Source: Pirellulales bacterium (GTDB lineage Bacteria; Planctomycetota; Planctomycetia; Pirellulales; JADZDJ01). Taken from it: 38,165 bases of DNA. Shown one piece after another: positions 6,339 through 38,165 of this stretch (within the stretch, counting starts at the first letter, position 1; each line of letters starts with the position of its first letter). Location of the stretch: contig DASRSD010000160.1 of NCBI GenBank assembly GCA_035656635.1, positions 1-38,165 of the forward strand, in the 5' to 3' direction. The notes under the pieces are model-generated. The model saw nothing but the letters and a program-made list of their open reading frames with translations. It searched no databases and had not been told where the DNA came from. The translations under genes were made by a program, and so were the position numbers.

Positions 6339-8129
6339 ATGCCCGAGAACATAGTCGAACTGGAACGTTTTGTCGACCGAGCCGGGCCGCTTTACAGTTT
6401 GCCCACGGTGGCGGTGGAGATTTTGCAACTCACCGCGCAGCCGAAAGTCGATTTGTCGGAGCTGAAAAAATGCCTGATGCGCGATCCGGCGCTGGTCAGC
6501 AAAATGCTGCGGGTTGTGAATAGTTCGCTGTTTGGGCTCAGCCGAGGCGTTTCCGATTTGAATCAGGCGCTGGCGTTGTTGGGAACCAAATCGGTGCGGC
6601 TCTTGGTTTTAGGCTTCTCGCTGCCTGAAGAATTATTTGCAGGATTGACCGGCGACATTTTGCGCCGGTACTGGCACCACACCGCGATTAAGGCAACTGC
6701 GGCCCGCGAAATCAGCGAGTCGATTTACCGCATGCCGGGGGAAGAGCCGTTTATTGCGGGCCTGTTGCAAGACTTGGGCATGCTGGTGCTGATCCAGCAA
6801 CTGGGCGAGCCTTACGTACGGTTTTTGGAACGGGCCTTTGCGAAGGCCGTTGATGTCAGCGCGGCTGAGACCGTTACGCTGGGCTTCGATCATGTGCAAC
6901 TTAGCGCGCGGCTGCTTCAGCGATGGTCGCTGCCGGAAAACCTGGTGGCCGCTATCGGGGTGGGAAATTCGACGGAACGGATGGAAAAAATTCCCGATTC
7001 GCAAAAGGCGTTGCCGCAAATTTTGCACTTGGCCGATCTGCTGTCTGGCATGCTTGCCGAGGGGCGCACCGATTGGCTAGGCGGCCTGCTAGGCGTTGGC
7101 CAGCACTACCATCAGCTCAGCGGAACGCAACTCACGGCGTTGGTAAGCCGGCTGCGCGCAAAAGTCGATCAATTTAGCAACGTGCTGTCCGTGGAATTGC
7201 CGGCAGATATAAATTACGAGAGCATTCTGGCCGAAGCTTATCGCCGCTTGACAACCGAGGCCGATTCGGCCGCCACAGATTTATCGGCGATGCAGCAATT
7301 TGAGACGGCGGGGATTCCAGTCGTTGCAGCGGCGAACCTCGCGACCAACGATGCTCGTGAAGAAAGCGCCGTCCTAGGCGATGCGGCCGCGCTCAGCGAA
7401 GCCGTTCGCCGCTTTTCGCAACAGGCTGCTAAAAAAATGCCGGGCAAATCGCTTTTATTTGCTCGCACGCCAGCCAAGGCAGCTTTGCAGGCAATGCCAA
7501 AACATGCCGGCGCACCCTCGCCTGCGATGGCGACCACGGTTTCGCAGGACTCGAACGGCAGCAGCACGCTGCCCAGCGTTGCACTGTCGGGAACGGCTAC
7601 GCAGTCTGCGGCGTCCTTGAAAAACGTCGCGGTGACAGAAAACAAAGCGGGCATCAGCACGGAATTGCTCCGCAGCGTGGAGCAAGCCATCGCCACCTGC
7701 CGACGAACACGACAGCCGTTGAGTTTAGTTTTGGTGGAAATCGACCAGTTTGAAGAATTGTCGGCCAAATGGGGCGGGCACGAATGTCTTCGCTTGGCGA
7801 AATTGGTGTCGCTCACTTGTAGCTGCGTGGAACACGCGCACAACGTTCAATTACAAACCAATGAATGCCGCTTTGCTTTGGTGCTGCCGAATTGTGATCG
7901 GCCGGGAGCTGGAGAAATTGGCCACCAAATTCTCAGTGGCATCCGCCGCCTGAGCCAGCGTCACCGCGATGTGGCCGAGGCCAAATTGAAGATTAGCGTG
8001 GGCGTTACCACGGTGGCGATGTTGGCAAAAAATTTCTTGCCTGCCATGTTGTTGGACAGCGCCGATCGTTGCCTGCACGCCGCCCAACTTTCCGGCGGGA
8101 ACACATTGAAAAGCATCGACGTGCTGTGA
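6339..8129 (+). CDS. HDOD-domain signalling protein with C-terminal degenerate GGDEF domain
   Basis: A 596-residue cytoplasmic protein. Residues about 10-220 form an HDOD domain: LPTVAVEILQL, LKKCLMRDPALVSKMLRVVNSSLFG and the recognisable ALALLGTKSVRLLVLGF. HDOD is an HD-like fold without the catalytic metal ligands and is used in signalling. A low-complexity Ala-rich linker (about 300-430) follows. The last 155 residues have a GGDEF-like pattern (LSLVLVEIDQFEELSAKWGG, RFALVLPNCDR, LKISVGVTTV, ADRCLHAAQLSGGNTL). The signature loop reads QTNECRF instead of GGDEF/GGEEF, so diguanylate cyclase activity is unlikely; a binding or dimerisation role is inferred. It is monocistronic as far as can be seen. 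Confidence 0.85.
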   Translation: MPENIVELERFVDRAGPLYSLPTVAVEILQLTAQPKVDLSELKKCLMRDPALVSKMLRVVNSSLFGLSRGVSDLNQALALLGTKSVRLLVLGFSLPEELFAGLTGDILRRYWHHTAIKATAAREISESIYRMPGEEPFIAGLLQDLGMLVLIQQLGEPYVRFLERAFAKAVDVSAAETVTLGFDHVQLSARLLQRWSLPENLVAAIGVGNSTERMEKIPDSQKALPQILHLADLLSGMLAEGRTDWLGGLLGVGQHYHQLSGTQLTALVSRLRAKVDQFSNVLSVELPADINYESILAEAYRRLTTEADSAATDLSAMQQFETAGIPVVAAANLATNDAREESAVLGDAAALSEAVRRFSQQAAKKMPGKSLLFARTPAKAALQAMPKHAGAPSPAMATTVSQDSNGSSTLPSVALSGTATQSAASLKNVAVTENKAGISTELLRSVEQAIATCRRTRQPLSLVLVEIDQFEELSAKWGGHECLRLAKLVSLTCSCVEHAHNVQLQTNECRFALVLPNCDRPGAGEIGHQILSGIRRLSQRHRDVAEAKLKISVGVTTVAMLAKNFLPAMLLDSADRCLHAAQLSGGNTLKSIDVL

Positions 8130-25142: not shown

Positions 25143-25808
25143 ATGAAACGCCTTTTCACCTACACAATCCCAGTTGATGACGGCGCGGCTCCCAATCCAT
25201 TCTATGGAATGTGTTCGTTGGCCATTTGCAAGCCGGGAATTCGACGAGTCGCAAAAGTTGGCGATTGGGTTGCGGGACTTGGATCAATAAATGCGCCGAG
25301 TGGCGATCTCAGTGGGCGATTGGTTTATGCGATGCGAGTCGATGAAGTTCTTACGTTAAAAGAATACGATCAAAAGGCACATTCCGATTGGCCCCATCGC
25401 ATCCCTCGAATCGACAGTGCTGACCTGTCGGAACGACTCGGTGACTGCATTTACGACTATTCAGTTAGCCTGGAATCACCGATTCAGCGACCTAGCGTGC
25501 ATGGTCCAGAAAACAGAGTAACTGATCTGCGGGGCGAAAATGTTTTGATTTCTCGTCGCTTCTACTATTTCGGCAGCAGCGCCAAACTGCTTCCTCCTGA
25601 CCTTAACCAGATATGCCACCAACAGCAGGGACACCGAAGCAACGCGAATCACCATCATGTCGAAATGTTTGAAACTTGGTTGCGCAGCCTAAACTTAATG
25701 GCAGGACAACATGGTTGGCCGGACTATGTGGTTGAGTGGGCTAAAAATCACAAATGCGATGGGTGCATCACTCGTAAACATGCCGCAGAATACGATGAGG
25801 GTTGTTAA
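25143..25808 (+). CDS. Nucleotide-modification-associated domain 2 (Nmad2)-like protein
   Basis: A 221-residue soluble protein. It opens MKRLFTYTIPVDDGAAPNPF, then YGMCSLAICKPGIRR and VGDWVAGLGS, which I recognise as the start of the Nmad2 family: Y-x-x-x-x-D-x-G-x-A-P-N-P-F, then a C-x-L-x-x-C-K-P-x-I-R pattern and a GDWV strand. Nmad domains were described in phage and bacterial gene clusters linked to DNA base modification; their chemistry is not established. Later motifs include SRRFYYFGSSA and a C-terminal CDGC cysteine pair. It lies between the integrase remnant and the convergent four-gene operon. It may belong to the same accessory module, but it is not co-transcribed with it. Confidence 0.75.
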   Translation: MKRLFTYTIPVDDGAAPNPFYGMCSLAICKPGIRRVAKVGDWVAGLGSINAPSGDLSGRLVYAMRVDEVLTLKEYDQKAHSDWPHRIPRIDSADLSERLGDCIYDYSVSLESPIQRPSVHGPENRVTDLRGENVLISRRFYYFGSSAKLLPPDLNQICHQQQGHRSNANHHHVEMFETWLRSLNLMAGQHGWPDYVVEWAKNHKCDGCITRKHAAEYDEGC

Positions 25809-25903
25809 ATGATCTAATTCTAATGCAATCAACGGTACTTTCAGTCGATCAGACGGCAACAAATGAACCAGAGACAAATGGATAGAGCGATACTTACCTA
25901 CTT
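25809..25903. other. Convergent gap between Nmad2 and the HD/GHKL gene
   Basis: Ninety-five A/T-rich bases. No hairpin with a T-run was found for either convergent transcript. Confidence 0.3.
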
Positions 25904-28786
25904 TCATTCTGGTAACATCGGTCTCGTAATCGAACCTGTCAGCGACTTAAGTCTCTCAGCAGCTTCCCGGTACAGATGGATATATGGCCGGAGTTCGGAT
26001 ATCGCATCTTTTAAGCGAGTCCGCCTTTCATTAAAACCATACGGAATCACCCCATCGCCGGTGTACCTCAACATCATCTTTTCGAGGCGGGATGGTGCGA
26101 TGTTATCGCGCTCAGACAAATAGCATTCGACAATGGAATGTCGGCTCAATCGAAGCGAACTGATCTTAATGACAGTTGGTGGACAGGCTCCCAATGTTGC
26201 CTGCCAGCCGTTTCGGAGACGCTTTGAAATTACTCTAGTGCCAGGGCGATCATCTTCGGGCACTTCCAATATTTCTTTGATCTCATTTACAAGAGTCGTG
26301 CGATGCTGGTGGGAATAGAGGCGACCAATTTGTTTTACGCTCAATTCGCTCAAATGCTCTGGCGCGTCAAAACACACGGCGACCTTGTCATTCCACTTAA
26401 TCGGCGGCATGGCCTCCTGCCAATCATACGCGCGAGATATTACGAGAGTTGATGCGCGGCAAGTCCTAAGCAACCCGGGGTCGAGAAATGTGGTGCCCGT
26501 CGAACAACACACTAGGGCGTTTTTCCAGGGCATCGGATATACGTCTCGTGATGCGATTTGTGCGATGTTTTGCGGCGCGAAAAGAATCGCAAATGCGATG
26601 AGACTCTTTAAAGTGTCGTCCGCCAATTCCTCTGCAAATGGCAACGCTGCTTCGAGGCCGTCTCGTTGGAGTGTTAGCGGCAAATGCTGCGATCCTTCGA
26701 TGACCGATAGAAAAGAGATTTCCAGTATGTTGGCACTGAGGGATAACTTCGTGTCATTGTCGTCGATTACAACAAGTCCATTGCAAGTAAGCCTCGGGGG
26801 CAATGAATGTCGTGATTTATCTCTTCTCTTTGACTCACGGGGGGAATACCGGCCATATCGGCCGGTATAAGGAAACCTGCGAAAATACCACTCCAAGAAT
26901 TCAAAACCCCAATGGACGGACGTAAATCCTTTCGCCTCCAAGTAGTGCCAGCAAATTGGATTGTTCGGCGAAAACCATTGTGATAATGAATTGGATGTGC
27001 CCGGCAGTGGTCGCTTAGTCCGCCCTTCGAGCAGTAAAGCGCTTCCATTCGTGATATGGAATCGCTCAACGACTGGATACTCAAGACAGTACCAATCCCA
27101 ACTGTCGTACTTTCTGAGGGTGTCTCGTGCCCTGTTTGACAGCCGAACACGAATTCGCGTGCCATATCCCGGTTGCTTGATCTTTTTGACTGCGATTGAT
27201 TCCTCGTTTAAGCGAGCGGTGAATTCGTATCCAATACGATGTTCAAAATGCCGCGACGACACATGTATTTGATCGCCCATGAGGAACGCTGCCAGCGCCC
27301 CTACTCCGAAACGTCCGGAACGTGGAAGAACTGGGGCACCATCATTTAGAAACAGTGACTTCCATTCACGGCTCTCGCGAAGAGATTTTCCGGCCGTCAA
27401 AAAATACTCACGGATTACAGCATCGGTCATCCCAATGCCGCGATCCTCGATAGTGAAGTATGCACCTGAATCATTGTCCTCAAATAATAAGACCACGTCC
27501 GCATTGCTCGTTGTGCCGCCGAACACGTCAATCGGCTCACGAACATAACGTGGCTTGTATACTCGTAGTTCACGAACTGCATCTACAGAGTTCTGTAAGA
27601 GTTCACGAACGCCAATCTCGGGATTGTCACCATATAGTGGCTTGACTAATTTCTTAAGCAGTTCGCCACCTTCGGCGCGGAATTGGATGTCCGCTGCCAC
27701 ATACGACACCGTGTTCCCAAATTGCCTGATGTCGTCGAGATTTGATCTTACTCGGCGAATGGTCAGTGTTAGGTCTTGCAGACCGGAATATCGGCCATTG
27801 AGTTCGTCAAGCAATTCCCAAGACGAGTCAAGTTCGTATTGAATTCCATTAAGCCATCCCTTGATCTTCAGAAATGTCTTAACGTCTTTCGGCTTTGCGT
27901 GTACAAATACTGCTTTTGGGTCTTCGTGACTTTGGCGCACGTCGCGTATGCCCTTATGGGCTATCCATTCGTCGCGCGATTTCGGATTGCGGAGCTTGTG
28001 GATTCGCAGAAATTCGCGGGGGGCACGTTCCGCTTGCAATTGCAAATAGTCGGCCACTCTCAATGCTGCCATCAAAAACACGGCATGAATATTTTGATAT
28101 TCGCGAACATCGTATTTGTTACGCAGATAGCCTAGACAGTCTCTCAACTCCATAAAATGACTGCGTGCGATAAATCCCGCGATGTCTCGCACTTCATATT
28201 TTATTCCATTGATAAGTCTAAATGGCGAACCAGTAACTTGCGGCAACCCCCAAAGCGCTATCTCATGCGCTAAGCGGCTATGATGCTTGCGAAGGAATTC
28301 TTCACCGATAATTCTCCGTTGTTGCGCAGTCCACACGTCAGGCGGCAACAGAATATCGAGTTGATCGTCCTGGAACATGCCCCTGAGCGCGTTAGACCCA
28401 TATTTTTGCTGCTCGATCAGAAATTCCTTCCAAAGTACATGCCACGGCTTATCCCCGATGCCTCTAATTCGCTTGCGCGGTTGAGTAACAAGGCTTGCAA
28501 AACAATCTTCATTCAGCAACATCGCCGAGTCGTGGAGCAAAGTAGCAAGTACAAGTGCCGCTGCGTCCTGCGCGGTGACAGACTTCCATGCTTCATCGGA
28601 AATCAATGATGTTGCCGTGACAAGCACTTGTTCCACATGAAGCGGGCCGTGGTCGGTCCAATCAGGAAAGAATGTCAGATGGGCCTTTTCCATCCATTGC
28701 TGCACGCGATCGACGGCTAAATTAACCGTGCTGAAAAGGCGAGGATGCGATAGTAGTAATTCAGCAAGGCGATCGGGTAAAGTCAT
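25904..28786 (-). CDS. HD-domain phosphohydrolase fused to a GHKL (Hsp90-like) ATPase
   Basis: A 960-residue soluble protein. Its N-terminal 260 residues form an HD-superfamily domain: His46 and His50 in DHGPLHVEQV, His85-Asp86 in ATLLHDSAML, and Asp246 in ALRVADYLQL, so a metal-binding set is present. Residues about 370-550 form a GHKL ATPase: N-box RELLQNSVDAV (394-404, catalytic Glu395, Mg-binding Asn399), G1 box DRGIGMTD (448-455) and G2 box GRFGVGALAAF (491-501). The C-terminal 400 residues resemble no named domain. The order HD plus Hsp90-like ATPase is known to me from bacterial conflict-type genes, mostly uncharacterised. It is last in the operon, 40 bases after the RelA/SpoT-like gene, with GGTAGG before its ATG. 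The HD part may hydrolyse a nucleotide made by that neighbour (inference). Confidence 0.85.
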   Translation of the reverse strand: MTLPDRLAELLLSHPRLFSTVNLAVDRVQQWMEKAHLTFFPDWTDHGPLHVEQVLVTATSLISDEAWKSVTAQDAAALVLATLLHDSAMLLNEDCFASLVTQPRKRIRGIGDKPWHVLWKEFLIEQQKYGSNALRGMFQDDQLDILLPPDVWTAQQRRIIGEEFLRKHHSRLAHEIALWGLPQVTGSPFRLINGIKYEVRDIAGFIARSHFMELRDCLGYLRNKYDVREYQNIHAVFLMAALRVADYLQLQAERAPREFLRIHKLRNPKSRDEWIAHKGIRDVRQSHEDPKAVFVHAKPKDVKTFLKIKGWLNGIQYELDSSWELLDELNGRYSGLQDLTLTIRRVRSNLDDIRQFGNTVSYVAADIQFRAEGGELLKKLVKPLYGDNPEIGVRELLQNSVDAVRELRVYKPRYVREPIDVFGGTTSNADVVLLFEDNDSGAYFTIEDRGIGMTDAVIREYFLTAGKSLRESREWKSLFLNDGAPVLPRSGRFGVGALAAFLMGDQIHVSSRHFEHRIGYEFTARLNEESIAVKKIKQPGYGTRIRVRLSNRARDTLRKYDSWDWYCLEYPVVERFHITNGSALLLEGRTKRPLPGTSNSLSQWFSPNNPICWHYLEAKGFTSVHWGFEFLEWYFRRFPYTGRYGRYSPRESKRRDKSRHSLPPRLTCNGLVVIDDNDTKLSLSANILEISFLSVIEGSQHLPLTLQRDGLEAALPFAEELADDTLKSLIAFAILFAPQNIAQIASRDVYPMPWKNALVCCSTGTTFLDPGLLRTCRASTLVISRAYDWQEAMPPIKWNDKVAVCFDAPEHLSELSVKQIGRLYSHQHRTTLVNEIKEILEVPEDDRPGTRVISKRLRNGWQATLGACPPTVIKISSLRLSRHSIVECYLSERDNIAPSRLEKMMLRYTGDGVIPYGFNERRTRLKDAISELRPYIHLYREAAERLKSLTGSITRPMLPE

Positions 28787-28826: not shown

Positions 28827-29537
28827 TTATTTGCAGTGATCGTCATAAGATTTGAATATGGAATCAACGAGGCGCGTTGCACTTGATGTCAAGCGTGCTA
28901 ATACCTTTAATTGTTCATTACATGCAACGCTCGTGGTCCGTTTTGGGTAATTAAGTTTGTGCGAGACTTCGCCCCATAGTTCTTCGCTCAATGTACGCAC
29001 TTGCAACTCGCACGCGGTCTCCGTCGTAGTATTCGCACGCACTACGTAATGAACACTTGTGTACATCGTATCGACGCGCACGTTGCACTTGATTCCGATC
29101 GACGAAAAGAAAGTCTCGTACTCGTGGTCCCAGAGATTCGCAATTGGGCCTTCGAGCAATTCGTATTTTTGCAGCTTAAAGAGAGCAAGCAATTGCGGAT
29201 GGATCGCACGCATCTGATCCGTATGCAGATGAAGTACGCGCACTCCAGCAAGGTCGGTTATTCGCGAGAATAAATTGGTCGCTGTGATGTCGAAGTGCTT
29301 TCCCCCTCGTTTGCATTCGATACATTTGCGACGAAGTTTTTCTCTCAGGTGGCTCGGGTCCTTAACTCGGTGTTTCGCAAATTTAATAAATGGAACTAAA
29401 CCGGGTGCAGTCGCGATGTCACCATGCAACACCTCTGCAAATCGTTCAAAGTCATGTCGTTCGCGCTTAAATAAATTAACACAGTCGCTTATTCGCTTTC
29501 GCTCGGCCACATTCGGCGTATAAGTTGTCTTCGCCAT
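28827..29537 (-). CDS. Stand-alone RelA/SpoT-domain nucleotide synthetase (small alarmone synthetase / toxSAS-like)
   Basis: A 236-residue protein made of one RelA/SpoT synthetase domain; no HD hydrolase, TGS or ACT domain is attached. The family motifs are in order: HRVKDPSHLREKLRRK (56-71, ATP site), DLAGVRV (95-101, Mg-binding Asp), YTSVHYVV (159-166, acceptor stacking Tyr) and ELQVRTLSEELWGEVSHKL (177-195, catalytic Glu). The key residues look intact, so it should transfer pyrophosphate from ATP. Known members make ppGpp, ppApp or modify tRNA 3' ends (toxSAS); which applies here is unknown. It is third in a four-gene operon, 25 bases after ParA and 40 bases before the HD/GHKL gene. No Shine-Dalgarno is visible. 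Confidence 0.85.
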   Translation of the reverse strand: MAKTTYTPNVAERKRISDCVNLFKRERHDFERFAEVLHGDIATAPGLVPFIKFAKHRVKDPSHLREKLRRKCIECKRGGKHFDITATNLFSRITDLAGVRVLHLHTDQMRAIHPQLLALFKLQKYELLEGPIANLWDHEYETFFSSIGIKCNVRVDTMYTSVHYVVRANTTTETACELQVRTLSEELWGEVSHKLNYPKRTTSVACNEQLKVLARLTSSATRLVDSIFKSYDDHCK

Positions 29538-29562
29538 AAATGATTTCGGGTGCGTGACTGGC

Positions 29563-30552
29563 TCACCGAGTCAATGTAAGAATGCGCTTCGCAATCTGGC
29601 GAAAGTCTGTTATTGCGTTCCGGCGTTTATGTTTGTCTCCTGTATTGACGAGGAACATAGGAACACCTTTAGCTTGTGATTGCTGGACGAGCGGACCGTA
29701 ATCCCTGACTTCCCCGAGTTTGTGGCCGACCTTGCCCGTTCTTCGCAATGGGGTCACCACATGCTTCAGCACCGAAACAACGTCGCGGTATATGTGACGC
29801 TCAAACAGTGAGGCGTATGTGGCGGGCGTGGATGCCATTTCTCCGCCATAGGTGCGAAACCGTTGCGGAATATATCCAAGGTACTGCGGTTGCCCCTTCA
29901 AGAGCTTGACTTTGCTCGGTGCGAGCGTTGCAATTGTTTCCCAATCGGTGATCCAATCCTTCAGTGTCTGTCCGAGCGTAATGAGCGCCCGGACCGAAAA
30001 GAAATCGCATACACTGGGAATAATGAAGTAGTCAGAGTCAAGCAGCAGGACTCGATTTAGTGGGCCAATGTTAGGGCCAGCATCGTAAAAGACATAGTCG
30101 AAACGATGAACTTTGCAAAGCGACTCCACCAATTCACTTATCGCCGTGGTCGTCCTAAACCCCGGCACCCTTCGCTTGAAGCAATCTGTCCAAGCATCAT
30201 TAAGTGCCAATTCAAATCGTGAAAGCTGAATGTCGCCGGGAAGTAAAAATGCGCGAGGTTGTCCCGGCATTTCCAGCAACTTCACAACGCGGCCTTGACC
30301 ATCACCATCACAAATCGGTTTTAGTGCCGACCAAATTGTTCTGCCGTGTGATGTTTCGGAAGTATCAAGCAGGTCATCGACAACATTATCTGGCACCAAA
30401 TATGATGTGAGATTGCATTGTGGATCGCTATCAACCAAAAGAACTCGCATGCCTTCTGCCGCGAGCGCAGCAGCGACATTCACGGTCAAAGTAGTTTTCC
30501 CTACTCCACCTTTGTGGTTATAGATCGTAATTTTTTTGGCTGGCGGCCGCAT
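29563..30552 (-). CDS. ParA/MinD-type P-loop ATPase
   Basis: A 329-residue protein with the deviant Walker A motif KGGVGKTT (14-21) that defines the ParA/MinD/Soj group. A second signature Asp lies in VLLVDSDPQCNL (39-48), and the Walker B strand is FDYVFYDAGPN. ParA proteins dimerise on ATP and bind DNA non-specifically to position plasmids or protein complexes. No parB-like gene or centromere-like repeat is adjacent, and the genes on both sides are a winged-helix-like protein and a RelA/SpoT synthetase. A partition role is therefore not supported; positioning or regulating the neighbouring enzymes is one option. The start is the ATG at 30552, 24 bases after the upstream stop, without a Shine-Dalgarno. 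Confidence 0.85.
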   Translation of the reverse strand: MRPPAKKITIYNHKGGVGKTTLTVNVAAALAAEGMRVLLVDSDPQCNLTSYLVPDNVVDDLLDTSETSHGRTIWSALKPICDGDGQGRVVKLLEMPGQPRAFLLPGDIQLSRFELALNDAWTDCFKRRVPGFRTTTAISELVESLCKVHRFDYVFYDAGPNIGPLNRVLLLDSDYFIIPSVCDFFSVRALITLGQTLKDWITDWETIATLAPSKVKLLKGQPQYLGYIPQRFRTYGGEMASTPATYASLFERHIYRDVVSVLKHVVTPLRRTGKVGHKLGEVRDYGPLVQQSQAKGVPMFLVNTGDKHKRRNAITDFRQIAKRILTLTR

Positions 30553-30576
30553 AAAGTGATCTGTGCGTTACTCGAT

Positions 30577-31146
30577 TCACGACTTTTTGGAAGTACCAGC
30601 GCGTTTTTTGCGCTTTGACCGCGCTCGGTCCATTGCATGCTTTGCCGCTTCTCGATCGGGTAACGCCATTACAAAGTTCTCGCCAGCCGCGCTTATTTGC
30701 TTGTGGCCTCTCGAACTTTCTGCGAGGTACCCCGTCCGTAGCGCATTGGATATAGCAACAGATGGATTAGAAAACTTGGGCTGTGCGGCTTCAGTATTCA
30801 ACGTACTAATATCGAGCGTCTTAAAATGTGGCAGGTTGCGATAATGCGATAGGTAGTACGCAAGGCACGCGACACGCTCAACATCGGTGGTTGGATGTTT
30901 TTCGCGAATGAACTCCTTTGGCTCCAAATCGACGTGATCTGAAAAACGAGACGGGGAATCCGCGGCGACGTGTCGCGAAGGGCTCGCAAATGCCTCGCCA
31001 GTTCGATGCGATTGTGTCAGTGAGAGGCTGTAGAATGTGGCAACTGTTTGCATCACCCGTTGGCGGCCTTCGTCAGTTAGCTTTGCCAATTTCGCGATAA
31101 AATCTTGTACGACTTTGCCCTCAGATGCTGGAGAATGTTCGGTCAC
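30577..31146 (-). CDS. Winged-helix-like accessory protein, first gene of the operon
   Basis: A 189-residue protein. The start is a GTG at 31146, with GGAG 11 bases upstream. The N-terminal third is helical (KVVQDFIAKLAKLTDEGRQR) and may dimerise. Residues about 75-165 look like a winged helix: DVERVACLAYYLSHYRNLPHF, then TLNTEAAQPKFSNPSVAISN as recognition region, and a closing strand before GENFVMALPD. The C-terminus is very basic (RSKRKKRAGTSKKS), in keeping with nucleic-acid binding. I recall related proteins in accessory regions of many bacteria without a known function. Placed first in the four-gene operon, it could be its repressor or a DNA- or RNA-binding subunit. Confidence 0.65.
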   Translation of the reverse strand: MTEHSPASEGKVVQDFIAKLAKLTDEGRQRVMQTVATFYSLSLTQSHRTGEAFASPSRHVAADSPSRFSDHVDLEPKEFIREKHPTTDVERVACLAYYLSHYRNLPHFKTLDISTLNTEAAQPKFSNPSVAISNALRTGYLAESSRGHKQISAAGENFVMALPDREAAKHAMDRARSKRKKRAGTSKKS

Positions 31147-32214: not shown

Positions 32215-32811
32215 CTACCATCCGCCGTGAATCACGGCGTAAACTGTTGGGCGAGAAACTTGGCACGCCCGTGCAATGCTGCTGACGTTTTCACCAGCCT
32301 TGCGCAACGTGCGAATAGCTTGGACCTTTTCGGCAATGGCTTTGGTTTGCGTTCCTTCCTTGCGTCCACCCCACGTTACGCCACGTTCGCGGGCTGCCGC
32401 TTGCCCGGCTAGCACGCGCTCTGCACGGCATTCTGTTTCAAACTGAGCCACGCTCGCAAGCATGTTCGCCAGCATCCGCCCTGCCGGCGTCGAAAGATCA
32501 ATCCCTTCGCGAAGCGAAACGAGATTGATTCCACGGTGTTGAAGATCGTCAAAAAGCGCCGTCAGCCCGCGAGCAGTGCGCCCAAGCCGATCCAATCGCC
32601 AGCAAACGACTGTGGCGACTTCCCTGTGTTCAATGGCTGCCTGTAGCTTTTTCCAACCCGGCCGCTCCATTGTCTTGCCCGTGAATTTGTCACGGTAAAA
32701 CACAACTGGCCGCGATTGTGCGGCTGACCACCGCTCTAGATCGGGCAACTGGCTGCGATGATCTTGTCGGCGGGAACTAACGCGAACATACATAGCAACG
32801 TGCTTTTGCAT
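32215..32811 (-). CDS. Serine site-specific recombinase (resolvase/invertase family)
   Basis: A 198-residue protein. ATG 32811 is preceded by AGGAGAG at good spacing; an in-frame ATG at 32835 is less likely. The N-terminal catalytic domain carries YVRVSSRRQ with the nucleophile Ser12, then VVCWRLDRLGRTARGL with the conserved Arg pair, and GIDLSTPAGRMLANMLASVA. A C-terminal helix-turn-helix reads NVSSIARACQVSRPTVYAVI. Length and order match Tn3-type resolvases and DNA invertases. Such enzymes resolve multimers of plasmids or invert DNA segments. It is divergent from the NUMOD1-like gene. A perfect TTGACA and the palindrome GACAAaTTGTC (32847-32857) lie just upstream and may be its promoter and own binding site. 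Confidence 0.92.
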   Translation of the reverse strand: MQKHVAMYVRVSSRRQDHRSQLPDLERWSAAQSRPVVFYRDKFTGKTMERPGWKKLQAAIEHREVATVVCWRLDRLGRTARGLTALFDDLQHRGINLVSLREGIDLSTPAGRMLANMLASVAQFETECRAERVLAGQAAARERGVTWGGRKEGTQTKAIAEKVQAIRTLRKAGENVSSIARACQVSRPTVYAVIHGGW

Positions 32812-32846
32812 GGCTGACTCTCCTAATTCAACCATGCTTCAATTTC

Positions 32847-32859
32847 GACAAATTGTCAA
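32847..32859 (-). promoter_or_regulatory. Candidate resolvase promoter/operator
   Basis: On the minus strand a perfect TTGACA (32859-32854) overlaps the palindrome GACAA-A-TTGTC (32847-32857). A weak -10 (CATGGT) would sit at 32836-32831. This is compatible with autoregulation by the resolvase; it is a sequence match only. Confidence 0.3.
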
Positions 32860-32970
32860 ACTTGAATTAAAAACCTACCTGAACAATTTTGCATTGCCAT
32901 AAGTCGTTTGGATATTAGCAGCGGGCGGGTGTTTGGCGGTATAGACTCAAATTTTACACTTGGAGCATTC

Positions 32971-33405
32971 GTGAACCTAAATCGCTGGGGTGTTATTGAA
33001 ATGATCGACGCCACTGGTCTACCTGTGCGCGTGATACCTTGCCGTATTGATCGGATACCGGGAGCGTTTGGCGAAAAATGGCGTTGGATTGCCGGCGGTT
33101 CGCATCCAATTTGCGCCTCTGCTGCTAGGCGATTAGCTCGCGAGCGTTTGAAACAAATTACCCGCTGGGCCGGCGGCATGGCACCGTGGCTAGAATCGCA
33201 CGCGCCTGTGCCACCGGGCAAGTATCGGCGTGGAATGGGCCGCCCTCTGCTACGTTTCGGTCCTGATGGCGCTGTGAGGCTTTTTAGGTCGGTTTCTGAC
33301 GCGGCAAAGTATGCTGGCCGGAGTCGGGCGGCACTTCACAAAAGGCTTTTGGACGGTTTCCCAGACGGTCAGGGGGCTGTCTGGCAAGACTTCCGGCCAC
33401 TGTAA
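32971..33405 (+). CDS. NUMOD1-like DNA-binding protein, unknown role
   Basis: A 144-residue protein if started at GTG 32971, which has GGAG 5 bases upstream; ATG 33001 is an alternative, and the frame extends to 32908. The C-terminal 50 residues resemble the NUMOD1 helix-turn-helix found in homing endonucleases and mobile-element proteins: VRLFRSVSDAAKYAGRSRAA, then a short helix LHKRLLDG and a closing strand GAVWQDFRPL. The N-terminal part is basic and has no recognised nuclease motif. It sits divergent from the resolvase and just upstream of the origin-like repeats, so it may bind DNA there. That link is inference. Confidence 0.5.
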   Translation: MNLNRWGVIEMIDATGLPVRVIPCRIDRIPGAFGEKWRWIAGGSHPICASAARRLARERLKQITRWAGGMAPWLESHAPVPPGKYRRGMGRPLLRFGPDGAVRLFRSVSDAAKYAGRSRAALHKRLLDGFPDGQGAVWQDFRPL

Positions 33406-33467
33406 CCGTGGGGCCGATTGATAACCGTGTGGGCAGATCGCCGAGTATCCGAACTATTTTGGGAAAC

Positions 33468-33628
33468 TTTTATAAAAAAGGACCACTTCGCACTACTGTA
33501 TTGGTACAGGACGGCATTGGCGTACAGACCGTGGCATCCCAAAACCGATTCAACTGAGCCGACAGCCAAGAGCAATTTCAGTTTTTTTATAAAAACCGAC
33601 CGGAATGCGCTACTGTATTGGTACAGGA
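33468..33628 (+). repeat. Two iteron-like direct repeats, 44 bases each, 117 bases apart
   Basis: Each copy has TTTTATAAAAA, a 14-base spacer, then CTACTGTATTGGTACAGGA. Copies are at 33468-33511 and 33585-33628. The conserved half contains a dyad (CTGTA-ttgg-TACAG), as in protein binding sites. The spacer is only partly conserved (GACC and GC kept), so the two blocks appear to be selected separately. Confidence 0.8.
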
Positions 33629-33688
33629 AGGAACGGTCACATACACCTGCCCGCCGCTTGCAGCCGTGTAGCTTGGCACCTGGATGCC

Positions 33689-33818
33689 GGCAGGTCGCGG
33701 GTGAGCGGTGAGCGGTTGACAATTATTTATCTTTCTCTTCCGCGCGCACTCTCTCTCTCCAAGCGCGCGCCAATTAGAAAAGGGAAGCGGAGAATTTCCC
33801 CTCACCGCTCACCCTGCC
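33689..33818. repeat. Large inverted repeat with nested stems upstream of the primase gene
   Basis: GGGTGAGCGGTGAG (33699-33712) is the exact complement of CTCACCGCTCACCC (33801-33814), and GGCA/TGCC (33689-33692 with 33815-33818) extends it past a bulge. Inside are CTTCC/GGAAG (33737-33741 with 33783-33787) and CGCGCGC/GCGCGCG (33741-33747 with 33763-33769), sharing one base. The TTGACAATTATTTAT stretch inside is A/T-rich. Confidence 0.75.
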
Positions 33819-33922
33819 AATAGCTAATTCAAAGCGGCTGCCTGCCGCAATTGCTGCGCAACCAGCCGTCTTACTCTCCGCTGGTTTCGTGTATCCCTGA
33901 ACAAGAGAGTTTGAGGCATTGT

Positions 33923-36505
33923 ATGAACGAGTTTTCAGTGGGGCTTCCCCGATTCCTTCAAGCATCCTGTAATTCACAAAATGAAGATTTAGTGAAGCGC
34001 GTTTGGAAGAGTTGGCCAGTTGAAATACAGGTCAACATTCGGACAGACATTGGTGAACCAGTTGATGATGATAACAATCCAGCAAAAAGACGACATAACG
34101 GACGAGATTTTTACAATTTCCGCTACCCGCGCGACGCGGGAGTCAAGCCAGATTGGGCAGAGCGTTACCTGACGTATCCATTGGAAGAATACGCTAGCGA
34201 AATCGGATCGACGGGATTCGGAGCGGATGGCAGCCAGTGGGTCGGTTTCGATTTCGATACGATCTTAGGTCATGCGGAAGGGGTCGGAATTTCGGATGCC
34301 GAAATTCAAGAAATTGATATTGCCGTAGAAAGAATTGGTTACGCCGAGCTACGCCGTTCCACGGGGGGAAGAGGCAGACACATTTATGTTCATCTTTCCG
34401 ACTTCAAGAATGTTGTAAACCATACGGAGCACGCCGCTCTTGCACGAGCAATTTTGGCGAAATTGTCGCACGACCTTGGGATGGACCTGACAGCATCCGT
34501 CGATGCGTGCGGCGGCAATATGTGGTTTTGGTCCAGGCGTGCGACTGACGAAAACCGTGGTTTTGAACTTCTCAAAAAAGCAACCACTAAGCTGTCGCCA
34601 ATAGACGTGCCAAATTGGTGCGACTATTTACCTGTGGTAACGAGAAAGCGAAGCAAAATCTATGTTGAAGGATTGAATGAGGATTTTGCGGCTTCTCAAC
34701 CGAAGGTTCGTCGCGATAGACAGCATGACGCTATATTCGCGGAGTACGTTAAACACGCCACATTGATCTATCTGCCGGACCACGGCTGCTACCATTTGCA
34801 CACGGCAGAACTTGCCAAAGTTCACGAAACTTTGAGGCTTCGGGGATTTTTTGAGACGGTAAGCGAAGGAAGCGATCCTGGCAAACCGAACGCTTACGCA
34901 TACCTGCGACCCAATGGTGCGATGTTGGTTGTGCGGTTGGGGAATGCAAAGGAAACGAGCATTTGGGGTGAGACAAAATCCGGTCAAGCATGCATTCTGT
35001 TCAATCAATCTCTCGATTTGCAAAATATCTGCCGTGCCGTTGACGGAGTATGGACTGGAAAGGGTTTTACCTGCCCGACGCTTGAATCCGCGAATCGTGC
35101 TGCTGGATACTTCCGCATCAGCTTACCGCCGGTTGCGGAACGCGCGGTAAGTTTCTCAATTCAAAATGGTGGCCTCTTAGTTACATGCGATCGGATCGGC
35201 AAAGAGCAAGTGAACGGCTGGGCCGGCGAAGGACGAAAGCTCAAACGCCACTTCGCAATCGACCTGCCCTGCGATGATGAATCCAACGATAAGTATCGAC
35301 ATCTTACCACGCCAACAAACGAAGATGCTGGCTGGGCGATGGAGCGCGATGATGGAACTTGGGGGTTTGAGAGCAAATCGACGCTTGAAGACGCACTAAT
35401 CCACGATGGATGCAAGAAAGACGGTGCAAGGAGAGTTCTGGGAGCCGCCGCGAAGCATCCGTGGACTCTTGTTAATGAACCTTTTCAGCCTGAATTTCTG
35501 GCGGGGAGACGCTGGAATCGACATGGCCGAAAATTGATAGTGCCGGGTACCAAAGGAAACCATCGGCATTTCGATCTTATCTTCAAGCAATGCGGTCGAA
35601 TGCTGGACCCGGCAGTAAGCACCGATCCGTGGTGCAGACAGTATGGTGTCACGTCAGGTTCACGATACCTGTTGCTCTGGGCAGCTAGTCTCATTAAGCG
35701 GCCGAAACAACCGTTGCCGTGGTTGTTCTTATGGTCGCCGGAAAATAACACGGGCAAGTCGAGTTTGCATCGCGCCTTGGGAATGCTTTTTGACGGAGGC
35801 GCAACCGACGTTCGCGAAGCGCTGGTCGAAAAGTTCAACGGACAGTTGGCCGGCGCAGTGCTGTGTTATGTGGAAGAGGTATCATTGCCCCGCTCCGCAT
35901 ACGGGAAGATCAAATCCTGGATCGACAGTCCGACGATTTCGATTCGCGAGATGCGCACGACGTCGTACACGCTGACAAACACGGCGCACTTTATTCAAAC
36001 AGCCAATGGTCGTGATGCTTGTCCCGTTGAACAGCACGACGACCGCATCGTGGTAATCCCCGTGACTCCGATCGAAGAAAAGTTGATTCCGTGGACCGAC
36101 GAAATGGCTCCGTCGCTCCTAAGCGAAGCGCCGAATTTTCTGGCGACGTTGTTTGACACACCGTTACCCCGTTCAGCCGGCAGATTATTTTTACCCGTGC
36201 TAACTACTCCCGACAAAATTGAAATGATGCAGGGCGACAAAAAAACAGAACGCGAAACGATTGTTCAAGCTTTGATTGAAAAGATTACGCAACTTATCAA
36301 ACGGAACAACCGATGGCACGGTTTCGTCGGCGACCTGCTCAAAGCCATTGGAAAAGGCGAATGGAGCAATAGTCCGGCTACGCTTTCCAGTTACCTTGAC
36401 GACGCAGTTGGCGCACTTGCCGCCCACGGAATCGAGGTTGAAATCTCTGCCACTCAGGTACATGGCCAACGGCCAATCACAATTCAATTGGCCACGGCCG
36501 TTTAG
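33923..36505 (+). CDS. Fused AEP-type primase and SF3-type helicase, probable replication protein of the element
   Basis: An 860-residue protein. I chose ATG 33923, with GAGG 6 bases upstream, over the extension to 33851. The N-terminal part looks like an archaeo-eukaryotic primase: WVGFDFD (106-112) supplies acidic metal ligands, and RRSTGGRGRHIYVHL (144-158) matches the S-x-G-G-x-G-x-H nucleotide-binding motif. From about 560 a helicase domain follows: Walker A SPENNTGKS (605-613), Walker B VLCYVEEVSL with Glu651/Glu652, and TLTNTAHFIQTANGRDACPV, the sensor-like stretch of D5/SF3-type helicases. Such fusions start replication of plasmids, phages and integrative elements. The repeat-rich region directly upstream is its likely origin. 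The family level (AEP, SF3-like) is inferred from motifs. Confidence 0.8.
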   Translation: MNEFSVGLPRFLQASCNSQNEDLVKRVWKSWPVEIQVNIRTDIGEPVDDDNNPAKRRHNGRDFYNFRYPRDAGVKPDWAERYLTYPLEEYASEIGSTGFGADGSQWVGFDFDTILGHAEGVGISDAEIQEIDIAVERIGYAELRRSTGGRGRHIYVHLSDFKNVVNHTEHAALARAILAKLSHDLGMDLTASVDACGGNMWFWSRRATDENRGFELLKKATTKLSPIDVPNWCDYLPVVTRKRSKIYVEGLNEDFAASQPKVRRDRQHDAIFAEYVKHATLIYLPDHGCYHLHTAELAKVHETLRLRGFFETVSEGSDPGKPNAYAYLRPNGAMLVVRLGNAKETSIWGETKSGQACILFNQSLDLQNICRAVDGVWTGKGFTCPTLESANRAAGYFRISLPPVAERAVSFSIQNGGLLVTCDRIGKEQVNGWAGEGRKLKRHFAIDLPCDDESNDKYRHLTTPTNEDAGWAMERDDGTWGFESKSTLEDALIHDGCKKDGARRVLGAAAKHPWTLVNEPFQPEFLAGRRWNRHGRKLIVPGTKGNHRHFDLIFKQCGRMLDPAVSTDPWCRQYGVTSGSRYLLLWAASLIKRPKQPLPWLFLWSPENNTGKSSLHRALGMLFDGGATDVREALVEKFNGQLAGAVLCYVEEVSLPRSAYGKIKSWIDSPTISIREMRTTSYTLTNTAHFIQTANGRDACPVEQHDDRIVVIPVTPIEEKLIPWTDEMAPSLLSEAPNFLATLFDTPLPRSAGRLFLPVLTTPDKIEMMQGDKKTERETIVQALIEKITQLIKRNNRWHGFVGDLLKAIGKGEWSNSPATLSSYLDDAVGALAAHGIEVEISATQVHGQRPITIQLATAV

Positions 36506-36576
36506 TCAGTTCACGCCAATTCAAAGATGCCCGTGCAATCGTTGCGGGCCAATATCAATCGCAGGAGAAAAATCCG

Positions 36577-36837
36577 ATGCCAAATGTTTACGAACGAATT
36601 CGCGACGATCTTACGCTCACTGTTGAAGCGCAAGGCGACGGAATGCAACTCAGCTTGCTCTATTTGCTGCTGGACAAGCTCGCGCAAATGGAAGCAGCGC
36701 ACCCCACAAATGATACATACGTGAATCCAATCCAAGAATTACTAACGGTGCGACTTGGAAAATACGCCGAAACATTCGCGGTCAAGGATTTTATCGCGCC
36801 GTTGCTTGTGCCACGTTTGCCGCGATTCGGAGCTTAA
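36577..36837 (+). CDS. Small protein of unknown function
   Basis: An 86-residue acidic, mostly helical protein starting MPNVYERIRDDLTLTVEAQG, with AGGAGA 8 bases upstream of the ATG. Hydrophobic heptad-like helices (LSLLYLLLDKLAQME) suggest a dimer or a binding partner. It lies 71 bases after the primase/helicase gene and is probably in its operon. No family is recognised. Confidence 0.6.
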   Translation: MPNVYERIRDDLTLTVEAQGDGMQLSLLYLLLDKLAQMEAAHPTNDTYVNPIQELLTVRLGKYAETFAVKDFIAPLLVPRLPRFGA

Positions 36838-36889
36838 TGATCGAACCCACAACCCGCCCGACGCAATGAATCGGGCAGAGAGGAAAATA

Positions 36890-37759
36890 ATGAACGCAAG
36901 AGTTAGATATTTTGAAAAACGAGACCGCTTTATCCATTCTTTGGACGGCAAGGAATTCGGGTTCGACCCAACAAACAAGTCGAGCCGCAAAGCTGCGCTT
37001 GCCAGATTGAACGAGCATGGCACAAAGGTCATTTCGACATTGGAAAGCAATGCCGGGAGGCCACTGTCCGACCACGAACTTTCGCGCGGCGTTGAGCACT
37101 TTGACGACCGTACCCGCAACGAGCGGGTAGCTGAATTCACTGCGCAGGCAATGCGACAAGCGAAGAATGAAGTCGCTCGCGAGAATCCATATCAAAAAGC
37201 ACTTGATTCTGGATTCGTCGATCCCGAACGTAGAGAAACGCGCCGAGATATGTATGAGCGCTGCGCCCGAGAATGGGATACGAAGGCCGATGCCGAGGCA
37301 GAGCGGTTGGAATTGGAATCCGATCCGAAGCGCCAACGAGCCGTGAGCCATGCCAAGCGGGAGCTATTGGAAATGCGCTTTGATCCACACTTCACGTTTT
37401 CTGAAATCAAAGCTGCCGAGGCACGTTTAGAACTCGCGCGCAGTGGAGATTTGGCGCATTATGCGGTGCTTGACCGTGAATGGCGGGATGCCAAGCAAGC
37501 TAAGATTGACGCCAGAGTTGCGGCGGTGACGAGCAGATTAAAGCTTTGCGTGAACGCAAAACGCAAATCGAGGCCGACGCCTTCGAGCAGTTGCCGTCCT
37601 CAACAGAGCCGAGCGCCGAGCATCGAAGTCATTGATATACGGCCGCGCGCTTTTCAGGGAGGCGCACGGCTGTTTCGGGGACCCTGCGCTGGCTTCGGCC
37701 GGCGCAGGGATTTTTCAGGAGGTTTTACATGGACGTATCGGTTACGAATTACAAATTGA
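36890..37759 (+). CDS. Unknown charged, helical protein with an apparent C-terminal frameshift
   Basis: I start at ATG 36890 (AGAGAGG 6 bases upstream); ATG 36866 is also in frame. The first 210 residues are very rich in Arg, Glu, Lys and Ala and form long helices, e.g. AEAERLELESDPKRQRAVSH. After about residue 212 (position 37525) the composition changes sharply to Ser/Arg/Gly/Phe-rich. A -1 shift there continues naturally as DEQIKALRERKTQIEADAFE and stops at 37635. As read, the frame runs through the hairpin at 37682-37710 and 31 bases into the next gene, which a real C-terminus would not do. So the intact gene was probably 36890-37635, about 248 residues. No family is recognised. Confidence 0.6.
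   Translation: MNARVRYFEKRDRFIHSLDGKEFGFDPTNKSSRKAALARLNEHGTKVISTLESNAGRPLSDHELSRGVEHFDDRTRNERVAEFTAQAMRQAKNEVARENPYQKALDSGFVDPERRETRRDMYERCAREWDTKADAEAERLELESDPKRQRAVSHAKRELLEMRFDPHFTFSEIKAAEARLELARSGDLAHYAVLDREWRDAKQAKIDARVAAVTSRLKLCVNAKRKSRPTPSSSCRPQQSRAPSIEVIDIRPRAFQGGARLFRGPCAGFGRRRDFSGGFTWTYRLRITN
37682..37715 (+). terminator. Intrinsic terminator with UUCG tetraloop
   Basis: CCCTGCGCTGGC (37682-37693) pairs with GCCGGCGCAGGG (37698-37709) through 11 Watson-Crick pairs and one G-U, closed by TTCG and followed by A-TTTTT (37710-37715). AGGAGG for the next gene begins two bases later, so a released transcript would end at the doorstep of that gene. Confidence 0.8.
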
Positions 37760-38160
37760 ATGAAGCACGATTTAACGCTCGGATTGCCGAATTCAGGCAA
37801 TCCGACACCTTAACAACGCTTCGCGACGAATTGGCATTGGCCAAATCATTGATCGAAGATCGCCTGAATGCGGCTGCTACGCCTGCGGAGCGCGCCGCAT
37901 GTTTGCCAATGGTGCGCGATTTACTGAATACTGTCGGTGCGTTAGTGAAAGCACATCGCGCTTACGAGTTGCAGGCAGGCGAATTGCTTACCAAGGATGC
38001 TTTGCGTGAGTTTGCAAAAGAAACGGTCACCATTATCACTGACGAATTACGCGGAATGGCTGATTGGGAACTTATTGTGGACAAAATATGCGATCGACTT
38101 AGCAATAGTGTGGAAAATGCAAATAACGAGACGGCTGATACAAGCATTATGGGAGATTAG
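37729..38160 (+). CDS. Unknown helical protein
   Basis: A 143-residue protein starting MDVSVTNYKLNEARFNARIA. The start is well supported by a perfect AGGAGG (37717-37722) 6 bases upstream. It is almost entirely alpha-helical by composition: LRDELALAKSLIEDRLNAAA, LPMVRDLLNTVGALVKAHRA and a C-terminal acidic helix ending DKICDRLSNSVENANNETAD. This suggests an oligomeric or coiled-coil protein. Its position a few bases after a strong terminator implies that it depends on read-through or on a promoter within or after the hairpin. No family is recognised. Confidence 0.65.
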   Translation: MDVSVTNYKLNEARFNARIAEFRQSDTLTTLRDELALAKSLIEDRLNAAATPAERAACLPMVRDLLNTVGALVKAHRAYELQAGELLTKDALREFAKETVTIITDELRGMADWELIVDKICDRLSNSVENANNETADTSIMGD

Positions 38161-38165
38161 AATGG

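Follow-up and report, generated by a model that had tools for sequence, protein, structure and literature searches.

A nested dyad as the probable replication origin of a mobile element, directly before its primase-helicase gene, in a Pirellulales bacterium

Introduction

Two kinds of repeats, a pair of long direct repeats and a nested inverted repeat, lie before the primase-helicase gene of a mobile element in a Pirellulales bacterium, and the question raised by this locus is where among them the replication of the element begins. The window analysed here is a whole contig (C160, 38,165 bases) of a genome of 4.9 Mb in 190 contigs. Its left part carries chromosomal genes (a sigma-70 factor, MotA/MotB, an S1 protein, HDOD, Omp85 and HtrA-like proteins), the G+C content drops near 25 kb from ~0.55 to 0.49, and from ~28.8 kb rightwards the genes are those of a mobile element, namely a RelA/SpoT domain protein, a ParA ATPase, a serine resolvase, ORF165, a primase-helicase and small ORFs. 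As the element continues past the contig end, its right part is missing.

An earlier note on this DNA had read the interval before the primase-helicase gene as an iteron-type origin of a plasmid or integrative element. The origin itself is well supported by our analysis, through a dyad that recurs before related genes; the part of the claim that did not stand is the role given to the direct repeats, which are absent from the nearest relative. We consider it probable (roughly 0.78) that a mobile element integrated in a Planctomycetota-like chromosome has its replication origin at 33699-33814, that 33923-36505 encodes the cognate initiator and that both work by the mechanism proposed below.

Results

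The element and its replication module

The ParA-type ATPase of the element (29563-30552, minus strand) was recognized by family and profile matches. The serine resolvase (32215-32835, minus strand) is transcribed divergently from ORF165 (32908-33405, plus strand) and is 79% identical to the resolvase of a sister element on another contig, C135, of the same genome. ORF165, for which family searches assigned no confident family, is a candidate DNA-binding regulator, a role suggested by the position of its homologs upstream of the rep genes in sister elements. It is followed by the primase-helicase gene, rep (33923-36505, plus strand), and by ORF143 (37729-38160, plus strand), which belongs to the same module and is 71% identical to its counterpart in the element on contig C88, 34% on C135 and 28% in G599.

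Other parts of the window deserve a brief description. The stretch 25143-28786, at the G+C drop, is possibly cargo or a defence island; it encodes a nucleotide-modification protein (Nmad2) and a protein of 960 aa that combines HD-CE and HSP90-like ATPase domains. A minus-strand operon at 28827-31146 encodes the ParA ATPase together with a 189-aa protein of no known kind and a small protein with a RelA/SpoT domain. As an alarmone synthetase encoded beside the partition gene of a mobile element, this small protein could act as a toxin or in defence; PADLOC gave no match for it. Between the divergent resolvase and ORF165 genes lies a near-palindrome, TTCAATTTCGACAA-A-TTGTCAAACTTGAA (32838-32866), of which ATTGTCAAACTTGA and neighbouring blocks were found again at the equivalent place in the C135 element; this is likely a res site or a resolvase operator. 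Within the window, Rfam gave no match and no tRNA gene was found.

The primase-helicase protein

That a primase-helicase is encoded downstream of the repeats had been claimed before, and family, profile and fold all confirm it for 33923-36505. The 860-aa protein joins an AEP-type primase to an SF3 helicase; Pfam assigns DUF5906 and PHROGs assigns DNA primase families. In a search with a profile built from ten relatives, the helicase region of the polymerase of Nitratiruptor phage NrS-1 was matched at E 4e-15 and the SaPI5 primase-helicase at E 6e-7. Using the predicted model (mean pLDDT 83, pTM 0.49, with an uncertain domain arrangement), a fold search retrieved NrS-1 (2e-14) and SaPI5 structures, then poxvirus D5/E5-type and ASFV primase-helicases. 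Residues D110, D112 and D194, which we take to be the AEP catalytic residues, are invariant in 38 sequences. At its C-terminal end the model has helices at 763-834 followed by two strands, with low confidence at the end, and a C-terminal winged helix was not identified in it. When searched with the protein, a plasmid collection gave no match and a phage collection gave only distant helicase matches below 30%.

The dyad and its nested hairpin

A repeat search of the interval between ORF165 and rep located the left arm of the dyad, GGGTGAGCGGTGAGCGG, at 33699-33715 (plus strand) and the right arm at 33798-33814 (minus strand), each with two GGTGAG units on its own strand. The 14-bp perfect inverted repeat described in the earlier note is present at 33699-33712/33801-33814, extends to 17 nt at 94%, and is rare by chance, an exact inverted repeat of at least 14 appearing in 1 of 1000 dinucleotide shuffles. 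GGTGAG occurs in only four copies in 33406-33922, all of them within the dyad arms. The enclosed stretch had been called A/T-rich, which holds for its left part (33716-33741, 73% A+T), a proposed melting region, and not for the spacer overall, which has 50% A+T vs 47% for 33406-33922. The further stems and the CT tract were also recovered, as an inner GC hairpin at 33741-33769 whose arms, CGCGCGC (33741-33747) and GCGCGCG (33763-33769), enclose a CT-rich loop. No DnaA box was found in 33406-33922 and no inverted repeat downstream in 36400-38165. The cumulative GC skew has its minimum near 32-33 kb and rises afterwards, a course confounded by the strand of the rep gene.

The closest related initiator, 51% identical, is that of G061, from another family of the same order, and a nested dyad precedes its rep gene as well. 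On the left both loci have CGGGTGAGCGGTG without a change, the right arms correspond, and the remainder of the region has diverged; the inner hairpin of G061, GCGCGCACA/TGTGCGCGC, has a pyrimidine-rich loop as in the window. Compared with shuffles, the DNA folds of the window and of G061 reach z scores of -4.3 and -4.0, which 0 of 200 shuffles equal. Moreover, the dyad pattern GGTGAGCGGTG-N80-110-CACNRCTCACC is found in 2 of 396 genomes of the order, our own and G061, in both cases before this rep gene. The G061 region that has the dyad contains no such direct repeats. The feature conserved between the two loci is the dyad and not the direct repeats.

The two long direct repeats

The direct repeats, both on the plus strand, lie at 33468-33514 and 33585-33631; they are 47 nt long, 81% identical and 117 bases apart. 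The first copy has a TTTTATAAAAA block followed by the palindrome CTGTA-TTGG-TACAG (33496-33509), and in the second the palindrome is at 33613-33626. From TTTTATAAAA to CTACTG the distance is 25 bases in both copies, in agreement with the identical internal spacing reported before, and the similarity goes beyond all shuffles: the longest exact word common to both is 19 nt, a length that 0 of 1000 dinucleotide shuffles reach (maximum 14). The pair is also the strongest spaced direct repeat among the 73 window blocks of 520 bases. An occurrence at unrelated promoters genome-wide, which the earlier note had named as refuting its reading, was looked for and did not refute it; at up to 3 mismatches the 19-mer has two sites in the genome, both here, and the direct repeat is therefore not a genome-wide operator, such as a host regulator with sites at other promoters would have. 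Allowing one mismatch, an 18-mer has matches in 2 of the 392 phylum genomes searched, namely twice in our own and as a lone one-mismatch match in the other, which we estimate to be at chance level for that much DNA; an exact scan of IMG/VR with the 18-mer gave no match. A promoter scan of 32700-33960 detected no sigma-70-like promoter.

Some further likenesses were considered and dropped. The 117-base spacing corresponds to 39 codons, and a reading frame runs open across the two copies; a coding explanation was nevertheless rejected by judgement, as synonymous positions fall within the exact block. The NrS-1 word TTTGGTTA and the direct-repeat core TATTGGTACA look only loosely alike to the eye, and this was not used. 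The 10-mer CGCCAATTAG, which also occurs in the C135 region, is at chance level for the lengths compared.

Sister modules with other site words

At least two sister modules (locus L148, 5582-13408, on C135; locus L025, 6715-12866, on C88) are present in the same genome, where rep genes and site words differ. In the C135 element, the resolvase and an ORF165 homolog (46%) are followed by four 40-base direct repeats at 6867, 6993, 7166 and 7237, with a fifth, partial one near 7097 seen by eye, then by a 30-nt inverted repeat of GGTACC words and a different Prim-Pol/D5/DUF5906 gene. On C88, an ORF165 homolog (40%) is accompanied by a rep relative, ORF143 and six copies of the word TAGGAC. G480 encodes a resolvase, an ORF165-like protein and a rep relative, and its nested inverted repeats contain five GAGGGTTT words, which the remainder of that 10 kb lacks. 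G599 carries this gene set too, its inverted repeat being weaker. The copies on C63, also of our genome, and C88 carry short arms or scattered repeats only. Long direct repeats are found in 2 of the 5 modules, with unrelated sequences. A different rep gene thus comes with different site words, which would be expected if every initiator recognized a site of its own.

Dyads across the primase-helicase family

Relatives of the initiator are encoded in 25 of 396 genomes of the order, ours included, and in many viral contigs; in one scan of such contigs, 196 of 206 candidate stretches encode a relative. Inverted repeats were counted in 76 loci. From the viral loci, 67 of 80 entered and 13 were left out, either because we judged them to be near-duplicates (L038, L043, L046, L048, L070, L081, L090) or because little sequence lay upstream of the gene (L077, L079, L102, L107, L108, L115); genome loci L023, L026 and L027 were left out for a contig start or partial genes, L017 and the window complete the 76, and order-genome loci L116-L135 were not added. 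The ATG closest to the start of the match was guessed to be the start codon, which makes the distances to rep approximate. As controls we used the other 480-base blocks of these loci, without excluding coding sequence.

A spaced inverted repeat (arms of at least 14, gap of at least 20) is present in the 480 bases before rep in 38/76 loci, a count that includes related loci, vs 8/1529 control blocks; after dereplication, which corrects for close relatives only, the numbers are 22/58 loci vs 7/1211 blocks (Fisher p 5e-26). The longest spaced inverted repeat of the whole locus falls within 520 bases before rep in 33 of the 58. With arms of at least 12, an inverted repeat is found upstream in 44 of 73 loci and downstream in one (L022, which has none upstream). 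By ungapped scoring, the inverted repeat beats all 15 shuffles in 55/76 loci and fails to do so in 21/76. In 33 of the 35 arm clusters the A/T content of the spacer exceeds that of the flanks (means of 0.62 and 0.50), and arms within the family reach 40-60 nt, with nested hairpins.

RNA stems usually evolve via G-U pairs. In a clade of 14 loci, aligned by sequence and with the structure predicted on that alignment, RNAalifold gave two stems, the outer with 20 pairs and the inner with 7; pair-keeping changes on both sides were seen in 18 of the 27 pairs and a one-sided change in 4 cells only. Since compensatory changes come with almost no one-sided (G-T) cells, we infer that the dyad symmetry in this clade is kept in the DNA rather than in an RNA. 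The L051-L096 clade (for example L051 3825-3921) has perfect outer stems of 20-28 bp and inner hairpins, ~80-170 bases before rep and strongly covarying, and it could seed a search model for such origins.

Since the arms in the window contain GTGA words, which the NrS-1 polymerase favours in its template (PMC8718748), a GTG priming motif was tried as a general rule; it was rejected. GTG, GTGR and their complements are not enriched over the 35 arm clusters, GTG occurring 7 times in 899 bases of arms vs a shuffled mean of 6.2, and the two GTGA words per arm in the window may be coincidence.

Discussion

We propose that the dyad at 33699-33814 acts as the origin in the following manner. The initiator, an AEP primase joined to an SF3 hexameric helicase, would bind both mirror-image arms, each with its two GGTGAG units, as two facing complexes. 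The A/T-rich part and the inner hairpin region would then melt and the primase part would start DNA chains on both exposed strands, after which host enzymes may take over, giving bidirectional replication. Weighing against an origin at the dyad are the 21 of 76 loci where no inverted repeat beats the shuffles and the short arms or scattered repeats of the C63 and C88 copies, together with the spacer of the window, which overall is not A/T-rich, the lack of a DnaA box in 33406-33922 and the absence of GTG enrichment in the arms.

The dyad could instead be an autoregulatory operator or an RNA attenuator of rep, with the true origin elsewhere in the element, an explanation that we regard as quite unlikely. 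It would suit the position directly before rep, where such sites usually lie, and the high stability of the folded strand. Nevertheless, arms of 40-60 nt with nested hairpins far exceed common operators, and so few one-sided cells (4 among 27 pairs in 14 sequences) are unlike an RNA stem. In NrS-1 and in L022 the repeats sit after the gene, where an operator of rep is not expected, and the pRN1 stem-loop is reported to be needed for replication even when moved (PMC4234260, in the part of the text available). Furthermore, an origin may be an operator too.

The direct repeats, for their part, are a feature separate from the dyad within the same module. They are probably operators or promoters controlling rep or ORF165, or accessory initiator sites; most likely they bind a regulator, ORF165 being a guess from its position, and accessory binding of the initiator is the main alternative. 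To the specific proposal that they are operators or tandem promoters for a regulator of the element, perhaps the ORF165 product, controlling rep or copy number, we give an even chance. In each copy an A/T block (TTTTATAAAA) is followed by a 5-4-5 palindrome, their centres being 30 bases apart; the two copies point the same way in the interval from ORF165 to rep, the ORF165 homolog of C135 is followed by direct repeats of another kind, and the pRN1 replication operon includes a repressor gene, according to the portion of PMC4234260 at hand. Against it stand the missing family assignment of ORF165, the missing sigma-70-like promoter and the lack of any common sequence between the direct repeats of the window and those of C135. 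That the pair are iterons bound by the initiator and form the origin core is unlikely. They are strong repeats in one orientation less than 500 bases from rep, C135 has its four 40-base repeats in the same interval, and Cch2 of SCCmec is described as binding direct and not inverted repeats (PMC7581432, available in part); yet two copies are few, G061 keeps the dyad without them, the 18-mer is confined, among the 392 genomes of the phylum, to our genome and one chance-level match, and C88, G480 and other cassettes examined have no long direct repeats while keeping dyads or short repeat words. A role as res subsites of the serine resolvase, encoded 0.6 kb upstream, is very improbable: the resolvase of C135 is 79% identical and the direct repeats there are unrelated, and the res-like stretch common to both elements sits between resolvase and ORF165 instead.

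With the dyad preferred as the origin, a wider reading may be offered tentatively, at somewhat less than even odds. Hundreds of uncultivated phages and integrated elements might have one origin class, a DNA dyad with a nested hairpin just before the primase/SF3-helicase gene, its sequence rewritten lineage by lineage with the initiator, within an exchangeable module of resolvase, ORF165, control repeats, dyad, rep and ORF143. If this is true, the presence of several modules with different site words in one genome would give the dyads the role of compatibility tags, with the long direct repeats as a second, element-specific control locus. Even without this wider reading, the dyad of the window, if it is indeed an origin, would give a concrete, testable origin to a family of primase-helicases that many uncultivated viral contigs encode and for which we found no description of an origin in the open-access literature. 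It would extend the pRN1 stem-loop model by statistics and covariation, with symmetry kept as DNA rather than RNA, and make the origin location of such phages predictable from sequence alone. It could also serve as a small replicon in a phylum for which genetic tools are scarce.

Comparison with known systems

In a classical iteron plasmid origin, Rep binds several tandem direct repeats of 17-22 bp and DnaA boxes are present; the two 47-nt repeats set 117 bases apart, in an interval (33406-33922) devoid of DnaA boxes, do not have this form. With SaPI5 PriRep1 and the SaPI Rep/ori system (PDB 7ola, 7om0, 7pds) the locus shares a mobile-element primase-helicase and an adjacent origin of short repeats. 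However, SaPI/PICI-type origins are short iterons directly downstream of rep, whereas the dyad lies upstream and 36400-38165 has no inverted repeat; the sequence match to SaPI5 is restricted to the helicase region. In SCCmec, likewise, an element helicase (Cch2, with CCPol-MP) acts at repeats beside its operon and priming maps to repeats, but Cch2 binding needs direct, not inverted, repeats and the SCCmec primase is of another type (PMC7581432, as far as its available text goes).

NrS-1 offers the closest solved helicase region (PDB 6k9c, 6k9e, 6lrb) and, like the window, two-stranded repeat words beside the gene. In its sequence (AB746912.1), examined as a positive control, we found GTTACACTTT ten times, five per strand, within ~330 bases starting ten bases after the primase-polymerase gene (L144 4053-4460), a cluster for which the accessible parts of the NrS-1 literature gave us no description. 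According to the available parts of two papers, its polymerase starts DNA chains at TTTGGTTA and GTG-type words (PMC8718748), and two copies of TTTGGTTA lie on opposite strands at the genome centre (PMC7102993). One of them lies, on the minus strand, among the GTTACACTTT words, the second being outside the 10.5 kb examined; thus, in the one relative with biochemistry, two-stranded repeats beside the gene hold a known start site. Unlike the single dyad before the gene in the window, those of NrS-1 are many short iterons after it, of unrelated sequence.

For the crenarchaeal plasmid pRN1, the primase/SF3-helicase/winged-helix protein ORF904 is reported to need a stem-loop of ~100 nt beside its gene, which functions when moved and whose sequence varies while its structure is kept; phage BIP-1 has a similar stem-loop beside its gene, to which the authors extend the model (PMC4234260, available in part). 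As in pRN1, the initiator gene of the window is a primase-SF3-helicase gene adjoined by a stem-loop or dyad, its structure kept more than its sequence. Unlike pRN1, which has no iterons, each arm here has two GGTGAG units and the dyad holds an inner hairpin; and the stem-loops of pRN1 and BIP-1 are 3' of the gene, whereas the dyad is 5'. The 3' position is the usual one in pRN plasmids, but as the pRN1 stem-loop works when moved, we do not treat it as defining such an origin. An AEP and SF3 gene and a large, structure-conserved stem-loop adjoin each other at this locus, and a dyad origin would therefore fit the stem-loop origin that the available text of PMC4234260 proposes for pRN1-type primase/SF3-helicase proteins, placed here upstream of the gene.
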